Origin: an uncultured Verrucomicrobiota bacterium
GTDB taxonomy: Bacteria > Verrucomicrobiota > Verrucomicrobiia > Opitutales > Intestinicryptomonadaceae
Reading direction: 5' to 3'
NCBI GenBank assembly: GCA_949283955.1
Contig: CASDUP010000032.1
Location: 1-52,595 of the forward strand
DNA length: 52,595 bases
In this document: positions 11,812 through 22,987 of the stretch, in pieces
Layout of the letters: each line of letters opens with the position of its first letter
How positions within the stretch are numbered: the first letter of the stretch is position 1
Translations under genes and position numbers: made by a program
The notes under the pieces: model-generated
The model's input: only the letters and a program-made list of their open reading frames with translations
The model's database searches: none
Told to the model about the DNA's origin: nothing

Positions 11812-13662
11812 ATGAGAAAACTTTTAAGCGCATTTGTTTTAATTGCGGCAATCTGCGGAAAGCTTTGGGCGGCTCCCCAAGTGGAGTGTCCCGGATTTTC
11901 CCCAAGAACGATACGCCCGGGAGAAGCGGCGGTATATACCATAACCATAAAGGACATGTCCCCGACTATCAACCTGTCGGATATTCCCGTTCCCCAAGGC
12001 CTGCGATTTGTCGGACAGAACCAGTCGTCGTCGTTTTCGATGACTTCGGGAAGCGGCATTTCAAGAAGCGTATCCCTTCAGCTGTCGTTTGTTCCCGAAA
12101 CGGAAGGTTCGTTCACAATTCCAAAGTGGGAAATTTCCTACGATGGAAAAACATATCCCGTCGAAGCCGCTACTCTGATAGCCGACGCAAACGCTCCGGT
12201 TTCTAACAATTCCGGAATGGGCGGAATAATGTCGAGAATACGGACGAACAATATGCGAAGAGCCGCCGGGCATGAAAATTCCGGGCGCAACTACATATCA
12301 TCGATAGAGGGAAAGGCCTCTTTGACAGCCAAGCTTCCGAGAGAGTCCGTATATGTCGGGGAGTCGGTGCCCTGCTCTCTCGTATTTTCGATAGACCGCT
12401 CGCTCCACGACGCGGGCTTTAAGCTGACTCAACTCGTGCCTTCCACGGACAAGGTTTCCGAATTTGAATGTTCGGGCTTGAACATGGAAAAACCCGAAAT
12501 AGACACCTCGGATCCAAACGAAATAAAAGTGGTATACAAGTTTTACATAACCCCTTTGAAGGCGGGAAATTTTTCTTTGGATTTTTCCGCCAAAGGTCTC
12601 TTTTTAAAGGAGACCTCGTTGGAGGAAATGATGGATATGTCGATTTTCGACAGAATGATGTCCATGGGTGCGGAACAGCTGCCGTTTGAAATTTCCGCGA
12701 AAGCAAATAGCGTGCGGGTAATTCCCCTTCCGCCCGAAGGAAGGCCTGAAAACTTTTCCGGAGCAATAGGGGAATTTAAAATAGATTCCATATCCGCCGC
12801 TCCCGATTCGCTCAGTGTCGACGAGCCATGCACACTGACTGTAAAAATTTCTGGCAAGGGGAACTTCGCGAGAATTCAGCGTCCCAACATGGAGGAATCG
12901 AAAGATTGGAAGGTTTACAAATTTAAGTCCTCATTCTTCGACGAAAGCAACGGGGCAGCCCACAGCGGAATAAAAACTTTCGAGGCTCCTCTCGTTCCCC
13001 TGAAAGCCGACATATCCTCTACTCCCAAGGTTTCCTTCTCCTTCTTCAACCCGGAGTCTGGCAAATATGAGACTCTCGAAGGCAAGGGCGTGGAAGTGAG
13101 CGTGGCTCCCGCGCTCAGCGCCAAACGCAGGGCCGAAGTGTACGAAACTTCTCCCAAGGCCGCCGAACAAACCCTCAACGGAATAGTAGAAACCCCTTCG
13201 ATTTCAAAATCCGAATTTCTATCCTCCGCATGGTTCTGGATTTTCCAACTGGCTATTCTGGTAGCCCTGGCGGTTTTTATAATGGCGAAGAAAAAGCAAA
13301 TAAGGCTTGCCAGCGACCCGTTTTACGCAAAAACACAAAAGGCTAAAATAGGCCTCAAACGCGAGCTCTCAGCCGCGGAAAAAAGCGCCCGCGAAAAAAA
13401 TGCCAAGACCTTTTACAACCACGCCAAAGCCGCCCTCCAGTGGGTTCTGTGCCCCCATTCGGAATCCGAGTCCAGCGCGATTCTGCTCGGAGAAGCGAAA
13501 CATATTCTAAAAACTCTAAATATTCCCGATGCGGAAGTTTCCGAATATTTCGACGGATCCGATGCAATAGAATACGGGGCTCTGAAGGCTTCGGACGTGG
13601 ATTTCGAAAAATCCTTCTCCAACCTGAAAAAAATCTGCTCTCGAATTCAACATGAAAACTGA
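11812..13662 (+). CDS. batD: BatD-like protein (oxygen tolerance family)
   Basis: 616 residues from this start. The ATG at 11812 is preferred over an in-frame ATG 27 bp upstream because a signal peptide begins here (MRKLLSAFVLIAAICGKLWA) and the preceding gene ends at 11810. The long periplasmic part has beta-sandwich repeats typical of BatD (VGESVPCSLVFSI near 180, VDEPCTLTVKISGKGNF near 335). One membrane segment lies near 471-490, followed by a cytoplasmic helical tail. It probably provides the periplasmic portion of the Bat complex. It overlaps batE by 11 bp. Confidence 0.9.
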   Translation: MRKLLSAFVLIAAICGKLWAAPQVECPGFSPRTIRPGEAAVYTITIKDMSPTINLSDIPVPQGLRFVGQNQSSSFSMTSGSGISRSVSLQLSFVPETEGSFTIPKWEISYDGKTYPVEAATLIADANAPVSNNSGMGGIMSRIRTNNMRRAAGHENSGRNYISSIEGKASLTAKLPRESVYVGESVPCSLVFSIDRSLHDAGFKLTQLVPSTDKVSEFECSGLNMEKPEIDTSDPNEIKVVYKFYITPLKAGNFSLDFSAKGLFLKETSLEEMMDMSIFDRMMSMGAEQLPFEISAKANSVRVIPLPPEGRPENFSGAIGEFKIDSISAAPDSLSVDEPCTLTVKISGKGNFARIQRPNMEESKDWKVYKFKSSFFDESNGAAHSGIKTFEAPLVPLKADISSTPKVSFSFFNPESGKYETLEGKGVEVSVAPALSAKRRAEVYETSPKAAEQTLNGIVETPSISKSEFLSSAWFWIFQLAILVALAVFIMAKKKQIRLASDPFYAKTQKAKIGLKRELSAAEKSAREKNAKTFYNHAKAALQWVLCPHSESESSAILLGEAKHILKTLNIPDAEVSEYFDGSDAIEYGALKASDVDFEKSFSNLKKICSRIQHEN

Positions 13663-14431
13663 CGCCCATAAAATCTCGCCGACATTCGCGCTCGGAAAAA
13701 TCCTCGCGATAATCGGAGCGTTGGCGTTTTTTGCGTGCAATAGCCTAACTGCCCAGAGCGCCGAAGAATTTTTCATGCTCGGAGGAGGTGCATTCAAAAG
13801 CGGAGACTACCAAAAGGCTCTTGCAAATTACGAGCTAGCCATGGAAAAGGGCATGAAGTCTCCCGAGCTTTACTACAACGCGGCAAACGCGGCAGCAAAA
13901 CTCGACAAAACCGGACTTGCAGAACTCTACTATCTAAGGGCAATCTACATGGCCCCGCGCTTTAGAGAGGCAACCGCCAATTTCGCTATATTCGCAAAAG
14001 ACAATGCAATATCTGTCCCGCACGAAAAACTGCTTGCCTCGCCCATATCCGAACTTTCGGAACCGGAATGGACAGCGGCTACCTTCGTGTTTTTTTGGCT
14101 GGCGGTGGGCCTTCTTGTGATCCCTCCCCTGTACGCAAAGCGGCACGCAATATGGATCTTTCTGGCAGTTCTTGCAATCGCTGCGGGAATCGTCTCGATG
14201 TTGTCCATGGGAAAGTGGAACTCTTTTGCAAACACCGCGGTATCATTAAAGGACGACGTTCCGCTGCGACTGTCGCCGGCTTCGCACGCTCCGATAGTGG
14301 CAACCGCTAATAATGGACAATCGGGCAAGCTCGAAAAAATTTTCGGAAAATTCGGTTATATAAAAATGAAAAACGGAAAATCCGGCTGGGCAAACCTTGA
14401 AGAGTTCTCTCCGGTTATATACGACAAATAG
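13652..14431 (+). CDS. batE: BatE-like protein: TPR, two membrane helices and SH3-like domain
   Basis: 259 residues. The hydrophobic N-terminus (about 12-36) could be a signal peptide, possibly a lipoprotein one (LAFFACN). TPR-like repeats follow (SGDYQKALANYELAMEKG and YYNAANAAAKLDKTGLAELY). Two membrane helices lie near 145-190, and a C-terminal SH3-like domain (about 190-255) carries the pattern LRLSPASHAPI. This order is the standard BatE layout. It is the last gene of the moxR-bat operon and ends at the shared terminator. Confidence 0.9.
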   Translation: MKTDAHKISPTFALGKILAIIGALAFFACNSLTAQSAEEFFMLGGGAFKSGDYQKALANYELAMEKGMKSPELYYNAANAAAKLDKTGLAELYYLRAIYMAPRFREATANFAIFAKDNAISVPHEKLLASPISELSEPEWTAATFVFFWLAVGLLVIPPLYAKRHAIWIFLAVLAIAAGIVSMLSMGKWNSFANTAVSLKDDVPLRLSPASHAPIVATANNGQSGKLEKIFGKFGYIKMKNGKSGWANLEEFSPVIYDK

Positions 14432-14445
14432 CGCTTCATTTAGAC

Positions 14446-14485
14446 AAAAAAAGGACGCGATTTCTTTCCCGCGTCCTTTTGCCGT
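14446..14485. terminator. Bidirectional terminator between batE and the first PEP-CTERM gene
   Basis: Stem GGACGCG (14453-14459) and CGCGTCC (14470-14476) with a 10-nt loop. An A-run lies on the left and T-rich sequence on the right, so it can serve the converging genes on both sides. Confidence 0.85.
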
Positions 14486-14498
14486 TTTTCTTTCCGTT

Positions 14499-15710
14499 TT
14501 ATCCAAGCCTTCTTTTGGCAAGCACTCCAATTAGAGCAAGTACCCCGAAAATAAAAGCGAAATCCGCAGGCTCCGGTATCGGAAAATTCGAATTGTTCAG
14601 GTACACTCCCAACAATTCTCCGTCATCTCCATAAGCTTCCTCAAAATACCAACCGCCGGAAAATCCTTCCGTCATGCTCTCGTCTTCATAGGCGGTAAAA
14701 ATAGCTTCCATCGTCTTCCAATTATCGTTAAACGCCGCAAGCTCTATTGCGCTTCCATCGTCCCCGCTTATCGTAAACCCGCAATTTTCGTTTAACAATA
14801 TATAATTGTTCTCAAAATTTACAAAGTTTAACGTAGCCTTGTTTGAAGTTGAAGAATCGTAGCTGTATATAGTACCAAGCGTCAATATATCGGATTTCTG
14901 CCCGTCCAAAACTATACTCGTGTTGGAATTGTTTTTTACTAAAAGCGACTGCTTGTACACTGCTCCATCGCCAAACTCTAAAGTCGACGTGCTTCCAGAT
15001 CCAAGTATGATAAATGTAGTAGAGGTTTGATTCAAATTCTCATACATCTACACTTCCTTTTCCACTCGAAGTGTAGCTCCTTTGTAAAGCTCTATGCCCT
15101 GCGCGCAAACTGTAGATCCCGCTTTCAGTACTAACTTGCTGCTTGTCTGGGAGTTGCTATTCCAGCCCACCATTATGCGGCAAGTTCCTGTTTCATTTGT
15201 GGAACCCTGTACGTTCGTATAATAGGCCCTCAAAATACCTCCATCTTCCACGGTCACTGTTCCCGGAGCCCCGCTCCCATAACTATCGTAAATTAACCAT
15301 AGACCAGAAGCGGTATTTGAAGTTGAATAACGCAAAAATACTGCTTCCCCCGATATGTTTAAATTTCCGGCGGCATTACAAGACATTCCAGAAGAGAGAG
15401 CATTATTCGCATTGGAAACCTTAAAATAAGCTCCTGCCTCTATATTAAAAATCCCAGAATTTAGAAACTGCCAACGCTGAGTTGAGGATTCGATGTTTAT
15501 TACATAGTCTGTCCCCCTAAGCAAAGTCACATTGTCGCCAGAATCGATGGTAAGTGTAGTGGAGGTGGGAAACTTTCCCGCTGCAATATCTTCCTGAGAT
15601 ATCGTTATGTCCTCGGCCATTGCCACAGAAAAAAAGAACGCCGCCGGCAAAGCTGCCAACAGGTTCCTAAAACCGTTCACTCTTTCAAACATTCTGTATT
15701 TGTCTTTCAT
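14499..15710 (-). pseudogene. PEP-CTERM-like surface protein interrupted by an in-frame TAG
   Basis: Read through, this is one frame of 403 codons aligning end to end with the two intact paralogs at 16267-17487 and 18099-19304. It has a signal peptide ending MAEDITI and a C-terminal IPEP motif followed by a hydrophobic helix and AKRRLG. Codon 221 (15048-15050) is TAG. The 16267 paralog has TCG (Ser) there, inside the matching context V-Ser-M-Y-[DE]-N-L. One base change is therefore enough to explain it. Both halves remain open and well conserved, so the loss is recent, or the stop is read through, or it is a sequencing error. The intact product would be exported and cleaved by an exosortase-type enzyme; no exosortase is in the window. 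Confidence 0.85.
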
Positions 15711-15733
15711 ATGTTAGCCTTTCAAAAGTTTCC

Positions 15734-16085
15734 GCCCTATCTAAATGATAAAAATCTATTCTACCGCATGTACGTCCCTACACACTCACCCCAACCAAGT
15801 CTGAAGCAAAACACGCAACACGCGCACCACTAGCCGGCAACCTACGTATTACATATATCTTTGTCAATATATTTTTAGATCTGCTACTCGAACGAATTAT
15901 AACTTAACAAAATAGCACGAGTTACGCCTATTTTATTTTAGGAAAATGATGGCATGCTCCTGTATAGTGTACTAAATAATATTAGCAAGATTAAAACTTT
16001 ATTATGCTTTTACTTCTGTTCTGTAAGCAAATTGACATTTTCTGCTGTTTCATAAATCGGAAGCCCTATCTAAATATACCGTGCA
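15734..16085. repeat. 13-bp direct repeat GCCCTATCTAAAT
   Basis: Two identical copies at 15734-15746 and 16073-16085, 339 bp apart. The first lies about 25 bp upstream of the start of the interrupted PEP-CTERM gene. It could be a regulator site or a remnant of duplication of the gene with its upstream region. No third copy was seen near the other paralogs. Confidence 0.45.
15839..15870 (-). promoter_or_regulatory. Candidate promoter (-35 TTGACA) of the interrupted PEP-CTERM gene
   Basis: The minus strand reads TTGACA (plus strand 15862-15867) with an AT-rich upstream flank. The -10 at 17 bp spacing, TAGGTT, is weak. The same TTTGTCAATAT block (plus strand) occurs upstream of the third paralog. 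Confidence 0.35.
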
Positions 16086-16213
16086 ATAAAAAGAATCTTT
16101 CATTGTTTCTATTCTAAAAAAATGTGGGTACTTTGCCTATAACTAAATAATTGAATATTCTCAAAAAAAGCCCGCAACTCAGCTTTATACAGATATAGAA
16201 AAGATTATTGCAT

Positions 16214-16242
16214 AAAAAAAGACGCGTAAAACACGCGCCTTT
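16214..16242 (-). terminator. Terminator of the second PEP-CTERM gene
   Basis: On the minus strand AAAGGCGCGT, a GTTTT-type loop, then ACGCGTCTTT and a T-run. One mismatch lies in the 10-bp stem. It is 25 bp past the stop codon at 16267. Confidence 0.8.
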
Positions 16243-16266
16243 GTAAATCCGACTGCAAAAAGACCG

Positions 16267-17487
16267 CTATATCCTTCTATTGGCAAATACCCCAATTAGA
16301 GCAAGTACCCCGAAAATAAAAGCGAAATGCGCAGGCTCCGGTATTGGGAAATTCGAATTGTTTAGATACGCCCCGATTACCTCTCCGTCATCGCCGTAAG
16401 CTTCCTGGAAATACCACCCGCTGGAAAATCCTTCAGTCATGTTATCGTCCCCATAGGCGGTAAAAACCATGTCCATCGTCTTCCAATAGCTGTTGAAAGC
16501 CGCAAGCTTTATTATGCTTCCATCGTCGCCGCTTATCGTAATTCCGTTGTTTGTGCCAAGCAACAAATAATTGTTAGTAAAGTTGATAAAATTTATGCTT
16601 GCAGAATTCGTGTCCAAGGAATCGTAGCTGAGTATGCCTCCAAGAAAGACCCCTTCCGATTTTTGCTTGTCGAAAATAATGTTCGTGTAGGAGCTACCCT
16701 TTATCAAAAACTGACGACTATATTCGAATCCGTCGCCAAGCTCTATTTTTACAGACTCACTCGAGGAACTTCCCCTGTTTACTATTATGAACGTCTCTGC
16801 AGTTTGTGCCAAATTGTCATACATCGACACTCCCTTCTCAATTCGAAGCGAGGCCCCTTTATAAAGCTCGATTCCCTGACTGCAAATCGTCGATCCCGTC
16901 TTCAAAACGAGCTTGCTGCTTGTCACGCCCGAATCTAGCCACCCCACGTGCACGCGGCAAGTTCCCGTTTCGTTAGTGGAACCGGCCTCGGTTGTATAAT
17001 AGGTTCTCAGTATTCCTTCGGCTTCCACGGTCACTGTTCCCGCCGGTCCGTTCCCGTAACCGTCAAACGCCAAAAACAATCCAGCTGTAGTATTTGAAGA
17101 GGCGTATCTCAAAAATACCGCTTCTCCGGATATGTTCATGTTTCCGGCCACATTGTACGCCGTGTTGTTAGATCCTGTATAGCTGGTATTGGAAACTTTA
17201 AAGTAGGCCCCTGACTCTATGTTGAAAGTCCCGTAATTGCGAAACTGCCAACGCTGTACATCCGGTATATCGACCACAAAATCAGTCCCGCTTAAAAGCG
17301 TCACCGTATCTCCGGAATTTATTAGAAAAGTTTCCATAGTGGATACCATTCCCATATCTACGTCGTCCTGAGATATGGTTATATCATCCGCCATTGCCGG
17401 AATAAATAAAGAGGCCACAAAGCCCACCAACAATGGCCTCTTTAGCATGCCTTTCAACTTCTCCAACATTGCAATATTTTGATTCAT
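16267..17487 (-). CDS. PEP-CTERM-like surface protein, paralog 2
   Basis: 406 residues. A signal peptide at about 1-33 ends near PAMADDITI. The body is Ser/Thr/Gly/Asn-rich with beta-strand repeats, as in right-handed beta-helix or autotransporter-like surface proteins (GAYFKVSNTSYTG, then GTVTVEAEGILRTYY, then SKLVLKTGSTICSQGIELYK). The C-terminus has IPEPAHFAFIFG, a hydrophobic helix and the basic end NRRI, the sorting tail of Verrucomicrobiota PEP-CTERM proteins. It is closely related over its whole length to the genes on either side. Role unknown; probably a cell-surface or matrix protein. Confidence 0.88.
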   Translation of the reverse strand: MNQNIAMLEKLKGMLKRPLLVGFVASLFIPAMADDITISQDDVDMGMVSTMETFLINSGDTVTLLSGTDFVVDIPDVQRWQFRNYGTFNIESGAYFKVSNTSYTGSNNTAYNVAGNMNISGEAVFLRYASSNTTAGLFLAFDGYGNGPAGTVTVEAEGILRTYYTTEAGSTNETGTCRVHVGWLDSGVTSSKLVLKTGSTICSQGIELYKGASLRIEKGVSMYDNLAQTAETFIIVNRGSSSSESVKIELGDGFEYSRQFLIKGSSYTNIIFDKQKSEGVFLGGILSYDSLDTNSASINFINFTNNYLLLGTNNGITISGDDGSIIKLAAFNSYWKTMDMVFTAYGDDNMTEGFSSGWYFQEAYGDDGEVIGAYLNNSNFPIPEPAHFAFIFGVLALIGVFANRRI

Positions 17488-18011
17488 TTATAACCTTTCG
17501 AATTTTTTTCCGAAGGAGTTCTTTCCCTTTCGTGTGTGTTAATAAATCTCCGGACATAGCGCCCGAAATACTTTTCGAATAATGTTGCTAAACGAGAAAC
17601 TTCCAATTGTAAAGTTTTTTCGTAGACTTTAATAATAAATTGCCGCTTGCCGGCTCTTTTTTTCTCCCATATAATTGCATATATTTTCAAAAATTCTAGA
17701 TTGGGATACGAGCAGAAATATTTATTGCATGATATCGCTACTACGCAATTTTCCCCATATTATTTTAATTGGCATTGCGGTATATTATACTGAATATCAT
17801 GATATTATACTTTAAAAATTTTTCAAAATATCGACAATATTTCCTCCTTTTTGCGGAGCGAAGTTTCTTCAAATTAAGACGCTAAAAGGAATAAAAAAAC
17901 TAAACTCATCTGACTATAATTTCCTATGCAAGACTTCCCCAAAATTATTTGAGATGCGAAAAAAAATACAACAAAATTGCAGTCAAGATTTGCAAGGAAA
18001 TTCCTCCCGAC
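17488..18011. other. AT-rich spacer upstream of PEP-CTERM paralog 2
   Basis: No credible gene. It contains the perfect 14-bp palindrome AATATCATGATATT at 17793-17806, flanked by two copies of ATATTATAC (17782-17790 and 17802-17810). This looks like a regulator-binding cluster or a promoter region for the minus-strand gene, though it lies about 300 bp from the start codon. Confidence 0.5.
17780..17810. promoter_or_regulatory. Palindrome with flanking direct repeats, possible operator
   Basis: AATATCATGATATT (17793-17806) is its own reverse complement. ATATTATAC is found on its left (17782-17790) and partly inside its right arm (17802-17810). The TATTATAC elements also resemble -10 boxes. Confidence 0.35.
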
Positions 18012-18043
18012 AAAAAAGGACGCCCGAATTCTTTCGAGCGTCC
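18012..18043 (-). terminator. Terminator of the third PEP-CTERM gene
   Basis: GGACGCCCGAA pairs with TTCGAGCGTCC around a 4-nt loop with one mismatch. The A-run at its left gives a T-run on the minus strand. It lies about 55 bp past the stop at 18099. Confidence 0.8.
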
Positions 18044-18098
18044 AAAATTAAGTATTTTCTTTGCAGTAAAAAACAGACTTGCTCAGATTCGAAATTTT

Positions 18099-19304
18099 TT
18101 AGCGCTTTCTTTTAGCAAGCACCCCAACTAGAGCAAGCGCCCCGAAAATAAAAGCGAAATCCGCAGGCTCCGGTATCGGGAAATTCGAATTGTTTAAATA
18201 CACTCCCAACAATTCTCCATCATCTCCATACGCTTCCTCAAAATACCAACCGTCGGAAAATCCCGTTCCCTCTTCATTGTAAGCCGTGAAAATTGCCTCC
18301 ATCGCCTCCCAGCTCGAACTAAACGCAGCAATTTGCAATATGCTCCCGTCTTCATCGTTTATCACTACAGTATCGCTGTCGGTCAAAATCAAATAATCAT
18401 TCGCGAAGTTAAGGAAATTCACTTTCGTGGAGTTTCCTTCTTGATTGTCGTAACTGACAATAGATTTTATAGTGACATTCTCATCCTTTAACTCATCGAA
18501 CGATATTGTGACGCTGGAATCGTTTTTTACCAAAATTGACTCCTTATAGTTTGCTCCATCACCAAACTCTATCGTCGCCGAAGCGCTCGTGTTCACTATC
18601 ACAAAGGTTGTGGCAGTTTGCGCCAGATTACCATAAAGTGAAGCGTTCTTCTCCACTCTAAGAGCAGCTCCGTTGTAGAGTTCCACCCCCTGCGCTACAA
18701 GCGTTGATCCGCTTTTTAAAACCAACTTGCTCGACGTAGTGGATCCGCTATACCCGATAAACACTCTGGCTGTTGCCTGTTCATTGACGGAACCCACCTC
18801 CGGAGTATAATAAACCCTCAAAATTCCGCCGTTATCCACCGTCACTGTTCCTGCCGGTCCATAGCTGTATCCGTTGTGAGCCAAAAACAATCCGCACGCA
18901 TAGAGGCTCGTTCCATAACGCAGAAACGTGGCTTCTCCCGCTATGTTCATAGTGCCGGCAATATTTATGCAAGTACCACCGGAAGATTCGGTATGGGCGG
19001 AATTCGAAACTTTAAAGTAAGCTCCCGATTCTATGTTGAAAACGCCATTGTTGATAAACTGCCAACGTTGCGACCCATCAATAACGTCTATTATGTAGTC
19101 GGTACCACTGGCGACTGTGACGTTGTCGTACTGCCCCGTAGAAAACGATTCGTTAGTCGGAAACAAACCCATGTCTATTCCCTCCTGAGTTATTATTATG
19201 TCTTCGGCCATAACAGCCGGAATAAAACAAATCGCCGACGCAATCGCCGACAATCTCTTTGAGAACACACTCAATTTTGTTTGTAATCTATTGTCTTGCT
19301 TCAT
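18099..19304 (-). CDS. PEP-CTERM-like surface protein, paralog 3
   Basis: 401 residues with the same plan as paralogs 1 and 2: a signal peptide ending near VMAEDIIIT, a beta-rich Ser/Thr/Asn-rich body (GAYFKVSNSAHTES, then GPAGTVTVDNGGILRVYYTP, then SSKLVLKSGSTLVAQGVELY), and a C-terminal IPEPADFAFIFG, hydrophobic helix and AKRKR. The last 60 or so residues are nearly identical to paralog 1, including GWYFEEAYGDDGELLGVYLN. This points to recent duplication or gene conversion at the 3' end. Intact and probably expressed from its own promoter. Confidence 0.88.
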   Translation of the reverse strand: MKQDNRLQTKLSVFSKRLSAIASAICFIPAVMAEDIIITQEGIDMGLFPTNESFSTGQYDNVTVASGTDYIIDVIDGSQRWQFINNGVFNIESGAYFKVSNSAHTESSGGTCINIAGTMNIAGEATFLRYGTSLYACGLFLAHNGYSYGPAGTVTVDNGGILRVYYTPEVGSVNEQATARVFIGYSGSTTSSKLVLKSGSTLVAQGVELYNGAALRVEKNASLYGNLAQTATTFVIVNTSASATIEFGDGANYKESILVKNDSSVTISFDELKDENVTIKSIVSYDNQEGNSTKVNFLNFANDYLILTDSDTVVINDEDGSILQIAAFSSSWEAMEAIFTAYNEEGTGFSDGWYFEEAYGDDGELLGVYLNNSNFPIPEPADFAFIFGALALVGVLAKRKR

Positions 19305-20896
19305 AGTAGTTCATAGCGCGTTAAGAAGAACGAAAATCTTTTGCTATGCAAAAAACTCCCATCTCCAGTTGACTCCGTCATAGGTGTGTTAGCATAAGAC
19401 TTTAAGGGGCAAAAACCATCTCTCACTATATAGAAGTAGACATGCTAAATACCCGCTCTTAATGGAATAAAGATCATATATTTAGCGCATGTTTGTCAAT
19501 ATTTTCTAATCAATAAGTTTGTTTAAAAAAATGCGATTGGAAATATATTTTTGTATTTTTTCATATATTTTTTTAAAACTTTTTCTCACTCGTTCCTTTT
19601 CTCTCTTGCTGGCTCCGAAAACATGGAAGCCTGGTATTCAATCTGCGGAAAAACGGCTGATTAACAATAAATAAAGAAATCAAATTGAAAATATTAAAAA
19701 CATTTAACCGTAGGAAATATAATGTGTACTTGCAAGCTGTCTATTTACCTAAAAATTTTCGGAAATTTGCTATTTATTGCTTGATTTTTAAATTCCTCAA
19801 ACGCCGCAAAATTTTTTTTCAAACGAGACTTTTATCGCGCTTCGAGCAAAAAATAAGATTACAAGCGCTTGGTGGAAGTGTTGGATTTCAAGAAGACGCG
19901 GTTCCGCCATGGAAAAAATGAATGCACTTGGCGGCTCGAACTTTTTTAAAGCTGCGATACTTGCCAGATGATAGGCTGCCTTCTCTTCCGAAAAGCCACA
20001 TTCATTTTATAAACGAAAATTCAACGAGCTAAAAGATATACAAATATCACAACGCGCATGAAAGGCTTCGTATTTGTCGCGCAGTAAAAGAAGCTTGCTT
20101 CATCTCTCAAAGAGTGTGCCTATAAATTCTTGCGAATCCCTAAAATGCCATTCAAAGCAGAAAATAACGCATGCCATGCATAATATCGAAGGCAAAAGAA
20201 GGCGCTCTTTGGCAGAAGAAATATATAGCGGAGGGAAAATTATTTGGAGGAGGCAGTGAAAATTCGTGCGCGTTAGAAATTAAGGCAAAGCGAAAATACT
20301 GCGAAAAAATACTGAACGACAATTTACGCGCATTAAATAGACTCTCAAAAATAAGGAAGCGCAAAAGAGAAATGTCCATGTGAAGTTGCAGCTTACATAA
20401 CACGAAATTTTTTCGAGTTGAACCGAGGTACAATATTAAAAACACCCCAAGAAGACATAAGCCATCGAAACGGAAATATCGGGAAAGCGCGAAAAAAATA
20501 GTTGCTAGAAAATCGAAGGCTTCATGCTCTGCCCGGCTTTTCAAATTAAAAAAATACCCGAAGTGCGAGTTAAAAAACGGAACTCTTCTTCAGCAAATAC
20601 CTCATCTATTTTATCTGCATGCACAAAAAAGCGCGGGGAAAATAATCATACGAAATTTAAAGGCGGTGCGGTACAATAGAAAAGCAAATTTTTTCTCTTG
20701 GACATTCGGACCGTATGAAAGCTGAATCTATCCGGCGCTTCGGGTTCGTACTGCGCCTGTAAAACTTCGCGTCGCCTAACGAAAACTCGAACGGCTTTTT
20801 ATTTATTCGTGCGATTTAAATTATTCGAGCAGTAAAATTCGCTTTTTTCCTCTATTCATGCGAGGCTGCCAACAATTTACAGGCAATTCTTTCAAA
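19305..20896. other. 1.6-kb AT-rich region with no convincing gene
   Basis: Only short ORFs without clear protein character occur, for example at 19685-19921 (plus, very Lys/Arg/Phe-rich) and 20152-20544 (minus, Phe/Leu-rich). Base composition differs from the flanking genes, and coding signals (codon rhythm, Shine-Dalgarno sequences, overlaps) are missing. Possibilities are a decayed gene, a horizontally acquired remnant or a long regulatory region. No tRNA, insertion-sequence end or terminal repeat was recognised. Confidence 0.5.
19473..19500 (-). promoter_or_regulatory. Candidate promoter of PEP-CTERM paralog 3
   Basis: The minus strand reads TTGACA (plus strand 19494-19499), 15 bp, then TATGAT (plus strand 19473-19478). 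Both hexamers are good but the spacing is short. It lies about 170-190 bp upstream of the start at 19304. The -35 block TTTGTCAAT is shared with the region upstream of paralog 1. Confidence 0.45.
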
Positions 20897-21415
20897 TTAA
20901 CGCCGCTTTTTAGCGCCTGGTAAAAAAAATTCCGGTCTGTATGAACCTTCAAGTTGCAAAAGTTTTTTCTTTAGATCCAATCCCCCGGCGTATCCCGTGA
21001 GATTTCCCTTCGCGCCTATAACTCTGTGGCATGGAACTATTATCGCTATTGGATTGCGCCTCACCGCCCCTCCGATAGCCTGAGCCGACATCTTTGCAAG
21101 TCCTCGTTCCCCTGCTATTTCTTTGGCCAATTCTCCGTAAGTTGCAGTCTTGCCGTAGGGAATCAAGCAGAGCCTTTTCCAGACCCATTGGGAGAAACTC
21201 CCTCCCGCGGAAAGATCAAGCGGCAAATCCAGCGGGGAAACTTTTTTCCCCATGAAATAATTGTCGAGCCATTTCTCGGCCTCCGCAAGCACTCCCTGCT
21301 TCCCAGACTCCGAAACCTCCCTCCCCTCAAAGTAAGCCTCCGACAGACTTTCCCCATCTCGACTTTTCAAAACCATTCTTCCAAACTTCGACAAATACAC
21401 GGACGAAAACATCAT
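20897..21415 (-). CDS. ogt: Methylated-DNA--[protein]-cysteine S-methyltransferase
   Basis: 172 residues. Repairs O6-alkylguanine by moving the alkyl group onto its own cysteine; a suicide protein acting on DNA. The active-site motif PCHRVIG is followed by GNLTGYAGGLDLKKKLLQLEG, as in the family. The upstream helix-turn-helix region (IPYGKTATYGELAKEIA) and the Asn hinge region (GGAVRRNPIAIIVPCH) are also typical. The N-terminal domain is short, as in Ogt rather than Ada. It is monocistronic and borders the AT-rich region. Confidence 0.96.
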   Translation of the reverse strand: MMFSSVYLSKFGRMVLKSRDGESLSEAYFEGREVSESGKQGVLAEAEKWLDNYFMGKKVSPLDLPLDLSAGGSFSQWVWKRLCLIPYGKTATYGELAKEIAGERGLAKMSAQAIGGAVRRNPIAIIVPCHRVIGAKGNLTGYAGGLDLKKKLLQLEGSYRPEFFLPGAKKRR

Positions 21416-21426
21416 CTTACCTTCCT

Positions 21427-21498
21427 ATCGATTGCAACTATCCAAAAAAACGCGCCCAACGCCAGGAATTTCGTTCTCTAACGGATTGGGTAGGCGCT
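21427..21498. other. Imperfect stem-loop upstream of the cytochrome c peroxidase gene
   Basis: GCGCCCAA near 21452 can pair with TTGGGTAGGCGC near 21485-21496 with a 3-nt bulge, enclosing about 32 nt. It lies between the divergent ogt and peroxidase genes. It could be leader structure for either side; no known RNA family was recognised. Confidence 0.25.
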
Positions 21499-21622
21499 TT
21501 CGAAGCCGAATGCAAGCAAGTTCTCACAAAATTCCTTTCGAGATTACGGAAAGAAAAATAAATCAAGATTCTGGTTGAAAAATACAGGCAATAGTATTCG
21601 ATGTGGCCGAATCCACACGCTC

Positions 21623-22987
21623 ATGAAAAAATTTCTATTACTCGCAATCGCCGTCGCCGTAATTTGGGCGGCGGGCTATCAACTCGTAGGGAACATGTCG
21701 GACATTCCGGAAGGAACGCAGGCTCAAAAAGTTCTCGCGATATTCAAGGATAACGGATGCTTAAAGTGCCACTCGAAAAAAGATAAGGCTCCCTTCTACG
21801 CAGAGTTCCCGATTTTCGGAAAGTTTGTGAAGGAAGACATCGCAATGGGCATCAGAAGTTTCGACATAGACCCGACAATAGAGGCTCTCGAAAGCGGCAA
21901 AACGGTCGACGAAACATCTCTTGCTAAAATAGAATTCGCCACGGAGGGTGACAGAATGCCTCTTTTCTCCTACAGAATTATCCATTGGAACAGCAAGATG
22001 TCCGAGCTCGAGGAAACCACTATAATGGAATGGATAAAATCGGAGAGAAAGAAATTGGCGGAAAATCTGAATGTCGCGGAGGAGTTTCTAAACGAGCCGG
22101 TTCGCCCGCTTCCGGAATCTGTTCCATACGATCCGCGCAAGGCAAAACTGGGATCCATTCTCTACCATCACACGGCCCTATCAGGGGACGAAACAGTCTC
22201 TTGCGCCACATGCCATGAACTCGGCAAAGGTGGAGTCGACGGGCTTCAATTCTCGACAGGAATTCGCGAGCAAAAGGGGGCAATAAACGCCCCGACTGTA
22301 TTCAACGCGTATTTCAACAAGAGGCAATTTTGGAATGGCAGAGCGGGAAATCTCGAAGAGCAAGCGGGAGGTCCGCCGATGAATCCGGTCGAAATGGACG
22401 GAGGTTCGTGGGAAAAGATAGCCGAGAGATTGTCCAAAGACTCCTCGTTCAAAAAGCAGTTTGAGGAGGTCTATCCCGACGGTTTCACCGAAAAGAACAT
22501 AACCGACGCCATAGGACAATTCGAGAGGACTTTAATTACCCCCAACTGCCGTTTCGACAAATATCTTAGAGGGGACAAATCCGCGCTGACTGCCGACGAG
22601 ATAGAAGGATACAAAGTGTTTAAGAAGGCGTATTGTTCGGTTTGCCACTCCGGAATAAACCTCGGAGGGCAGACTTTCGAGTACATGGGTCTTAAGCACG
22701 ACTACTTCTCGGCCCGCGGAGACATAGGAAACGTCGACGACAAGGGCCTCGAGGGCTTCACCTCCGACATGCGCGATCTGCACAAGTTTAAAACTCCCAG
22801 CCTAAGAAATATAGAGCTCACCGCCCCATATTTCCACGACGGCACGGTTCATTCGCTGGACAAAGCTGTGGAGATAATGGCCAAATACCAAAGGGACGTG
22901 GAACTTACCCAGCAAGAAAAGGACAATCTCGTGAAGTTCCTCAAAACCCTCACCGGAGAACTCAACGGGAAACCCCTGAAACAATAG
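21623..22987 (+). CDS. Three-heme cytochrome c peroxidase (haem-binding domain plus CCP/MauG)
   Basis: 454 residues from the ATG at 21623, chosen over a TTG 48 bp upstream because a signal/anchor sequence begins here (MKKFLLLAIAVAVIWAAGY). It reduces periplasmic hydrogen peroxide to water with electrons from the respiratory chain. Three heme c sites are visible: CLKCH from C46, CATCH from C194 and CSVCH from C338. The first lies in an N-terminal haem-binding domain (CLKCHSKKDKAPFYAEFPIF) and the other two in the di-heme CCP/MauG core. The extra heme probably passes electrons from quinol or cytochromes to the core. It is monocistronic with a strong terminator 20 bp downstream. Confidence 0.92.
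   Translation: MKKFLLLAIAVAVIWAAGYQLVGNMSDIPEGTQAQKVLAIFKDNGCLKCHSKKDKAPFYAEFPIFGKFVKEDIAMGIRSFDIDPTIEALESGKTVDETSLAKIEFATEGDRMPLFSYRIIHWNSKMSELEETTIMEWIKSERKKLAENLNVAEEFLNEPVRPLPESVPYDPRKAKLGSILYHHTALSGDETVSCATCHELGKGGVDGLQFSTGIREQKGAINAPTVFNAYFNKRQFWNGRAGNLEEQAGGPPMNPVEMDGGSWEKIAERLSKDSSFKKQFEEVYPDGFTEKNITDAIGQFERTLITPNCRFDKYLRGDKSALTADEIEGYKVFKKAYCSVCHSGINLGGQTFEYMGLKHDYFSARGDIGNVDDKGLEGFTSDMRDLHKFKTPSLRNIELTAPYFHDGTVHSLDKAVEIMAKYQRDVELTQQEKDNLVKFLKTLTGELNGKPLKQ

Follow-up and report, generated by a model that had tools for sequence, protein, structure and literature searches.

Similar sorting-tag codons in three old tandem PEP-CTERM-like paralogs of an uncultured Verrucomicrobiota bacterium

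Results and Discussion

A contig of 52,595 bases (CASDUP010000032.1, here C32; the whole of it is called the window) from the genome of an uncultured Verrucomicrobiota bacterium of the family Intestinicryptomonadaceae (G000: 1.65 Mb in 58 contigs, 91% complete) carries on its minus strand three tandem paralogs, A, B and C, each encoding a passenger followed by a PEP-CTERM-like sorting tag at the C-terminus. The bodies of the three genes have diverged extensively, whereas the codons of the tag are much alike, also at synonymous sites, and we consider it probable that the trio consists of old duplicated genes for exported surface proteins, the sorting-tag codons of which were later copied between neighbours by gene conversion. 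The features concerned are the following.

14499-15710, minus strand: paralog A, interrupted; signal-peptide-like start (by eye), predicted beta-solenoid passenger, PEP-CTERM-like tail
16267-17487, minus strand: paralog B, intact, 406 amino acids
18099-19304, minus strand: paralog C, intact, 401 amino acids
14526-14594, minus strand: homogenised tag codons of A (aligned codons 381-403), with a 37-nt core at 14543-14579
16291-16359, minus strand: homogenised tag codons of B (aligned codons 381-403), core at 16308-16344
18123-18191, minus strand: homogenised tag codons of C (aligned codons 381-403), core at 18140-18176
15048-15050, minus strand: premature TAG in A, codon 221; both neighbours have serine

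Divergent bodies and similar tails

A preliminary description of the locus, made from the sequence alone, had regarded the three genes as closely related products of a recent amplification, with gene conversion at their 3' ends. The recent amplification is not supported: protein identity is 61% between A and B, 56% between A and C and 55% between B and C, and the synonymous divergence (dS, obtained by the Nei-Gojobori method on aligned codons) is at least 1.2 over aligned codons 1-345, in part beyond computation, so that the bodies are old paralogs and only the tails can be called closely related. Where it is computable, the ratio of nonsynonymous to synonymous divergence (dN/dS) of codons 1-380 is about 0.11-0.32, the trio bodies being under purifying selection. 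Over codons 381-403, which are the 23 PEP-CTERM tag codons, dS is down to 0.20 for A-B, 0.20 for A-C and 0.13 for B-C: the rise in identity predicted for the 3' ends is thus present at synonymous sites, in support of the proposed conversion. The nearly identical ends of A and C and their divergent middles had also been noted, in agreement with identities of 92-95% (nucleotide) and 95-100% (amino acid) in aligned codons 361-400 of these two genes and of only 43-65% (nucleotide) in codons 241-320; what had been missed, however, is that B shares its last ~24 codons with A and C as well.

The codons used at conserved residues point in the same direction. In the last 45 columns these are identical in 33 of 40 cases for A-C, 25 of 35 for B-C and 27 of 37 for A-B, as compared to 91 of 179, 86 of 181 and 115 of 203 in the rest of the gene (Fisher p of 0.00016, 0.0075 and 0.045, respectively), and the last 40 columns hold 23-30 identical codons where 11-13 are expected from codon usage. 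The best 20-codon windows of every trio pair sit on the PEP-CTERM codons, and the best segment shared by C and A corresponds to aligned codons 352-408. With segment permutation, the outcome was 0 of 5000 for A-C and, a fair result, 49 of 5000 for B-C; the local drop of synonymous divergence that gene conversion leaves is seen in the trio, the permutation being clear only for these two pairs. Similarity fades at the stop codon, and the stretches in common that a repeat search detects are intragenic, terminators and spacers having none.

Neighbouring PEP-CTERM-type genes in nine genomes

We have compared the PEP-CTERM-type genes of this genome with those of eight others (nine genomes in all); outside genome G001, most regions were picked because their PEP-CTERM matches lie close on the contig (among the matches listed), and not for codon identity. 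In a first set, from which spurious or very short genes (L114 14019, L115 4535, L102 11293) and a fragment on C30 were dropped, the pooled identity of tail codons is 280/377 for 17 neighbouring pairs and 1014/2504 for 163 dispersed pairs. Within the trio's own genome, the fraction of tail codons in common amounts to 0.83 in neighbours (5 pairs) and to 0.38 in dispersed pairs (86 pairs). A census of G001 over 1.2 Mb yielded 36 usable genes, one spurious candidate of 37 (G001 75028) having been dropped, and here the tail codon identity is 101/171 in 11 adjacent pairs, 128/284 in 22 pairs less than 30 kb apart and 3196/7930 in 597 far pairs (adjacent versus far, p 0.0024).

A set of 76 genes was assembled in which the G001 genes come from the census alone, which leaves out two G001:C2 genes in L114, and from which L115 4535, L102 11293 and C30 were dropped, together with pairs having fewer than 8 comparable tail codons or fewer than 10 body codons, so that 762 pairs were left. 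Mean identities are 0.67 in the tail and 0.51 in the body for the 23 adjacent pairs, as compared to 0.40 and 0.41 for the 739 non-adjacent ones, and the tail-minus-body difference distinguishes the two classes (Mann-Whitney p 5.8e-5). The adjacent tail identity was reached in 0 of 5000 within-genome reshuffles, a test which ignores the closer kinship of neighbours. When the trio is left out, consecutive pairs still differ from the others (18 versus 672 pairs, p 0.0036, the short open reading frame (ORF) G001 1460050 being also dropped from the non-adjacent set), with the tail exceeding the body in 13 of the 18. Contig-end pieces on C42 and C39 of the trio's own genome have no complete tail and are outside these counts. 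We tentatively consider a wider reading, which is possible but for which we would not claim a preponderance of the evidence: conversion may recur throughout the family in a proximity-dependent manner, confined to the tag codons of tandem exosortase substrates, so that passengers could diverge or be exchanged without the tag losing its fit to the sortase. This would be a general way in which surface proteins evolve, the cargo being swapped and the tag copied.

Sorting tag, signal-peptide-like start and exosortase-family gene

The C-termini of A, B and C display a PEP motif, a hydrophobic stretch and a basic end, as is characteristic of PEP-CTERM proteins, and at their N-termini a basic n-region, a hydrophobic core and an AxA-like site are recognized by eye. 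The best NCBIfam match of the 39-residue tails is a PEP-CTERM model, to the last 25 positions of which they align. Scores are nevertheless low: 19.3-20.8 of the 50 bits of the cut-off for NF038126, 12.9 of 16 bits for B with TIGR02595 (A and C are not among the matches listed), and 9.8 (A), 15.1 (B) and 15.2 (C) of 20.7 bits for PF07589. According to Haft et al. (2006, PMC1569441), PF07589 misses the V. spinosum set. Since the 24-position tail models miss known sets and the trio remains below their cut-offs, we have termed the trio PEP-CTERM-like. Serine, threonine and asparagine account for 7-10% each in B and C.

The tails of the trio match those of other PEP-CTERM-type proteins of the same genome, where at least 11 further genes or gene ends carry such tails on other passengers. 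PEP-CTERM-type genes or pieces of them are found at or near the ends of contigs C3, C6, C23, C30, C39, C42 and C50; the assembly is possibly broken within such families, which makes the count for this genome a minimum. A single gene of the exosortase family is present in this genome, on another contig (G000:C39:4752-5531), and its product exceeds the cut-off of PF09721 (3.1e-20) and of TIGR04178 (47.3 of 23 bits), while none of the listed models of specific exosortase subfamilies reached its cut-off. As to the other genomes of the genus, 11 of 13 have two to three exosortase-family matches, some of them fragments; a further gene of this family has either been lost from the genome of the trio or is missing from its assembly.

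Predicted fold of the passenger

No family model significantly covers the passenger, the trio has no detected esterase domain, and a PDB sequence search with a passenger query (A3) gave no match. C was modelled with AlphaFold2, using only the window's own rows. Residues 31-270 are modelled as a beta-solenoid with 10-residue means of the predicted local distance difference test (pLDDT) of 61-95, whereas the pLDDT is ~50 over residues 271-300 and lower beyond, the overall mean being 63.5; the tail helix (residues 380-398) is modelled at low confidence. In VIA-align comparisons with chains proposed by Foldseek, a Z of at least 8 is reached in 101 of 120 and the top rows are beta-helix proteins, among them the autotransporter UpaB (Z 15.8 over 256 residues, root mean square deviation 4.2) and the L. 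reuteri SRRP (Z 14.9), as expected of a beta-helix fold. The passenger is thus predicted to be a beta-solenoid of about 240 or more residues.

Proposed explanation and its alternatives

According to the explanation that we favour, B, C and formerly A would be single-gene transcription units for exported surface proteins. Upon export, the tail helix would halt in the inner membrane, an exosortase would cut at or near the PEP motif, cutting by exosortase being a step of PEP-CTERM sorting, and the passenger would then reach the outer surface or matrix. The displayed beta-solenoid would probably bind a glycan or neighbouring cells; the suggested link to glycans comes from a fourth copy of the passenger, which is fused to an AXE1 esterase domain (see below). 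The copies would be old duplicates, diverged under purifying selection, whose short 3' tag segment was later recopied from one neighbour to another through gene conversion, a short-tract ectopic recombination, which would keep the tags matched while the passengers diverge; the cut of A in two by a nonsense codon would be late. If this is true, recopying of the tag between neighbours is a testable mechanism for keeping tags working, and the C-termini of such families are unsafe for dating or tree building. We found no explanation of how new PEP-CTERM proteins keep a working tag.

A number of observations weigh against this explanation. As to the anatomy, the trio tails are below the curated cut-off of every PEP-CTERM model listed, and all PDB matches obtained with Foldseek for the model of C lie above E 0.001, the best being antigen 43. 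Within the trio, the contrast in dS is graded, not sharp, across codons 346-380 (0.91 for A-B, 0.79 for A-C, not computable for B-C), the segment permutation is weak for A-B (346 of 5000), and the shared tail core is short, with longest exact runs of 40, 37 and 21 nt, lengths which are near the lower limit for RecA recombination. As to neighbours in general, the effect is not universal: tail identity exceeds body identity in 15 of 20 consecutive pairs, 10 of the 20 reaching p <0.05 singly; at G007:C9 (L101:4411 and 6575) the pattern is reversed, the bodies of the neighbours being 90% identical and the tails 4/10; and in G009 dispersed tails (0.67) are about as similar as neighbouring ones (0.63). 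When only bodies at least 40% identical are considered, without the trio, 9 versus 19 pairs give p 0.038, the Wilcoxon test giving only 0.1. Finally, pairs within arrays and genomes are non-independent.

The alternative of a modular origin, which we regard as unlikely, states that new passengers were inserted 5' of a tail already present, or that tails were swapped or captured, tail and body being consequently of different ages. This would agree with the esterase copy, in which the passenger has no tag, with neighbours that share the tail and hardly the body (body 30%, tail 18/24 in G015; body 35%, tail 18/23 in G009) and with the G007:C9 pair, which shares the body and not the tail. The trio bodies are, however, homologous over their whole length and arranged in tandem, for which the simplest event is the replacement of one tail by another. 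As tail replacement is also recombination, a modular origin and gene conversion partly merge, and conversion or tail swapping by short-tract recombination is what best explains the similar tails.

It appears quite improbable that selection alone produced the pattern, with the exosortase demanding the tag and codon bias making its codons alike in the absence of conversion. The tail is a functional tag, for which conservation of amino acids is expected, and the tails of otherwise unrelated PEP-CTERM-type proteins of this genome do resemble each other; yet the excess of identical codons over that expected from usage lies at synonymous sites, and the difference between neighbouring and dispersed pairs of the same genome remains. 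In fact, dispersed copies with the same type of tag mostly do not share its codons, and for this reason selection on the tag alone is a poorer explanation than conversion or tail swapping.

Antigenic or adhesive variation, put forward as a possibility in the preliminary description, finds no evidence here, and a cassette array from which antigenic or phase variants are expressed is highly improbable. Tandem surface-protein paralogs with signs of recombination, one of them stop-interrupted, would suit it, but a separate start, a signal-peptide-like segment, an upstream region and a terminator belong to every copy. Outside the three genes, tblastn detected neither whole nor partial copies in the window, and the 91% complete genome holds just the trio and the esterase copy. 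Repeats that could serve for inversion or slippage are not evident, the searches having shown three weak inverted pairs (21-22 nt) and five tandem rows, short and of low copy number, and it is the exposed parts, under purifying selection, that have diverged, while the homogenised part is the tag, which is expected to be cut off or buried.

Relation to known systems

According to Haft et al. (2006, PMC1569441), PEP-CTERM genes form single-gene units preceded by long non-coding DNA and turn over rapidly in a lineage-specific manner, the tag behaves as a module, and few protein sets of the same genomes turn over as fast as PEP-CTERM proteins. The trio resembles this PEP-CTERM/exosortase system (EpsH; TIGR02595, PF07589, PF09721) in its PEP motif, helix, basic C-terminal end and signal-peptide-like start, as well as in the exosortase-family gene, the single-gene units, the long upstream DNA, the passenger without a model, the serine, threonine and asparagine content and the lineage-specificity; it differs in the sub-cut-off tails. 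The parts of PMC1569441 consulted cover modular expansion and gene duplication and not synonymous homogenisation of neighbours, the word 'recombination' being absent from its main text, and we found no report of tail conversion in PEP-CTERM genes among the papers listed in searches of open-licence PMC. The layout of the trio is an ordinary, lineage-specific example of the system, and what it adds is the homogenisation of the tag at the synonymous level between neighbours.

The predicted beta-solenoid is reminiscent of beta-helix adhesins and autotransporter passengers (UpaB, antigen 43, SRRP, PfbA). Those adhesins are anchored by a beta-barrel or LPXTG; the trio has an exosortase-type tag instead, besides having no PDB sequence match. 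The fusion of the fourth passenger copy is a likeness to AXE1 acetyl xylan esterases (PF05448), from which the trio differs in the absence of a detected esterase domain. The silent partial copies or shuffled exposed part of antigenic-variation cassette arrays were not found for the trio in the window or in the 91% complete genome.

Distribution and a fourth copy of the passenger

Further copies had been suggested as a point to look for, and one was found: contig C53 of the same genome (L038:664-3087) encodes a protein of 807 amino acids, the first ~380 residues of which are a fourth copy of the passenger, without sorting tag, and the C-terminal part an AXE1 acetyl xylan esterase domain (PF05448, 6.4e-14). 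Passengers of this kind are thus joined either to an enzyme or to a sorting tag. Besides the trio and this copy, the genome (91% complete) has no further one. Of the 32 esterase matches listed for other genomes, 26 fall within ORFs of 424-473 amino acids, which are too short for a trio passenger plus an esterase; an esterase ORF of 1047 amino acids in G018 (L177) has a long N-terminal part that looks like a beta-helix by eye and for which no sequence relation to the trio was detected.

Protein C was searched against 54 relatives (E 1e-10), and an alignment combining C and B with the C53 product against 384 genomes drawn from the class (E 1e-6, 383 of them other than the trio's own); in both cases only the trio's own genome matched. 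A stable trio in distant genomes, the finding named beforehand as contrary to a recent amplification, was accordingly not encountered in either search. Among 19 genomes of the bacterial family there is one other weak match (G006:C81, E 1.1e-6, profile positions 246-402), a protein of 385 amino acids with a PEP-CTERM end, which is matched partly via the tag and may be a distant relative of the passenger. A search of named genomes with query A3 gave 0 confirmed loci among 155 stretches. By tblastn, the other fetched loci match only the C-terminal half of A, reaching the tag (L112 at 1.4e-4; L103 and L164, which are one gene, at 8e-4).

The trio lies within a lineage-specific segment, inserted in a neighbourhood that is otherwise conserved, with the following features.

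14432-21574, no strand: lineage-specific segment of 7.1 kb, with the trio, ~1.6 kb without a convincing gene and a methyltransferase gene
20897-21415: O6-methylguanine-DNA methyltransferase gene, within the 7.1 kb insert
13652-14431: batE-like gene, flanking the insert
21575-22987: cytochrome c peroxidase gene, flanking the insert

The batE-like gene is present in 16 other genomes, and the region was fetched for 14: in 11 of these the batE-like gene is directly followed by the cytochrome c peroxidase gene, in one it stands beside the gene that comes next in the block, and in two no part of this block is seen. Identity of the batE-like gene within the genus is 39-46%; with neighbourhood genes so diverged between species, the insert need not be young because other genomes lack it. 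A mobile element was considered and rejected: there is no integrase in the ten window proteins scanned with Pfam, no long repeats flank the insert, and there is no tRNA.

Interruption of paralog A

The preliminary description had given each gene about 400 codons, which holds for B and C, the only intact members. In A, the in-frame TAG splits the gene into ORFs of 220 (15048-15710) and 182 amino acids (14499-15047). Reassignment of TAG was ruled out, as it terminates ordinary genes in this genome, 4 of the 12 window genes taken ending in it, B included. The divergence between A and B is similar on either side of the stop, the proportion of nonsynonymous differences (pN) being 0.25 on both and that of synonymous ones (pS) 0.67 before and 0.60 after; from this the break is apparently young, a polymorphism or an assembly error.

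Layout of the locus

The tandem arrangement on one strand, the coordinates, the AT-rich spacers and a hairpin for each gene, all put forward earlier, were confirmed. The spacers measure 556 bp (15711-16266) and 611 bp (17488-18098), and the G+C content in the 500-600 nt 5' of each gene is 0.31-0.34. A terminator-like hairpin with a T-run begins 18 (A), 24 (B) and 55 nt (C) past the stop.

14449-14480, minus strand: terminator-like hairpin of A, 12 pairs; also 17 nt beyond the end of the convergent batE-like gene
16218-16242, minus strand: terminator-like hairpin of B, 11 pairs
18018-18043, minus strand: terminator-like hairpin of C, 11 pairs

These three have 11-12 pairs and are placed where terminators belong; the scanned region has 10 terminator-like sites, which is no excess over shuffles (mean 8.8, standard deviation 3.7), and one more site of 12 pairs is located inside gene C. 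No Rfam match at gathering score was obtained in the window. Between the trio and the methyltransferase gene, the ~1.6 kb at positions 19305-20896 are A+T-rich and hold no convincing gene. The remnant of a fourth paralog, there or in the spacers, was sought with tblastn (the two ORFs of A, B, C and the esterase protein against the masked window) and discarded, none being better than E 0.1. TTGACA occurs on the coding strand upstream of 8 of 13 PEP-CTERM-type genes of this genome (366-600 nt taken each), the background in the window being 0.07 per 500 nt per strand, without A+T correction; examples in the window are at 15860-15867 and 19492-19499.

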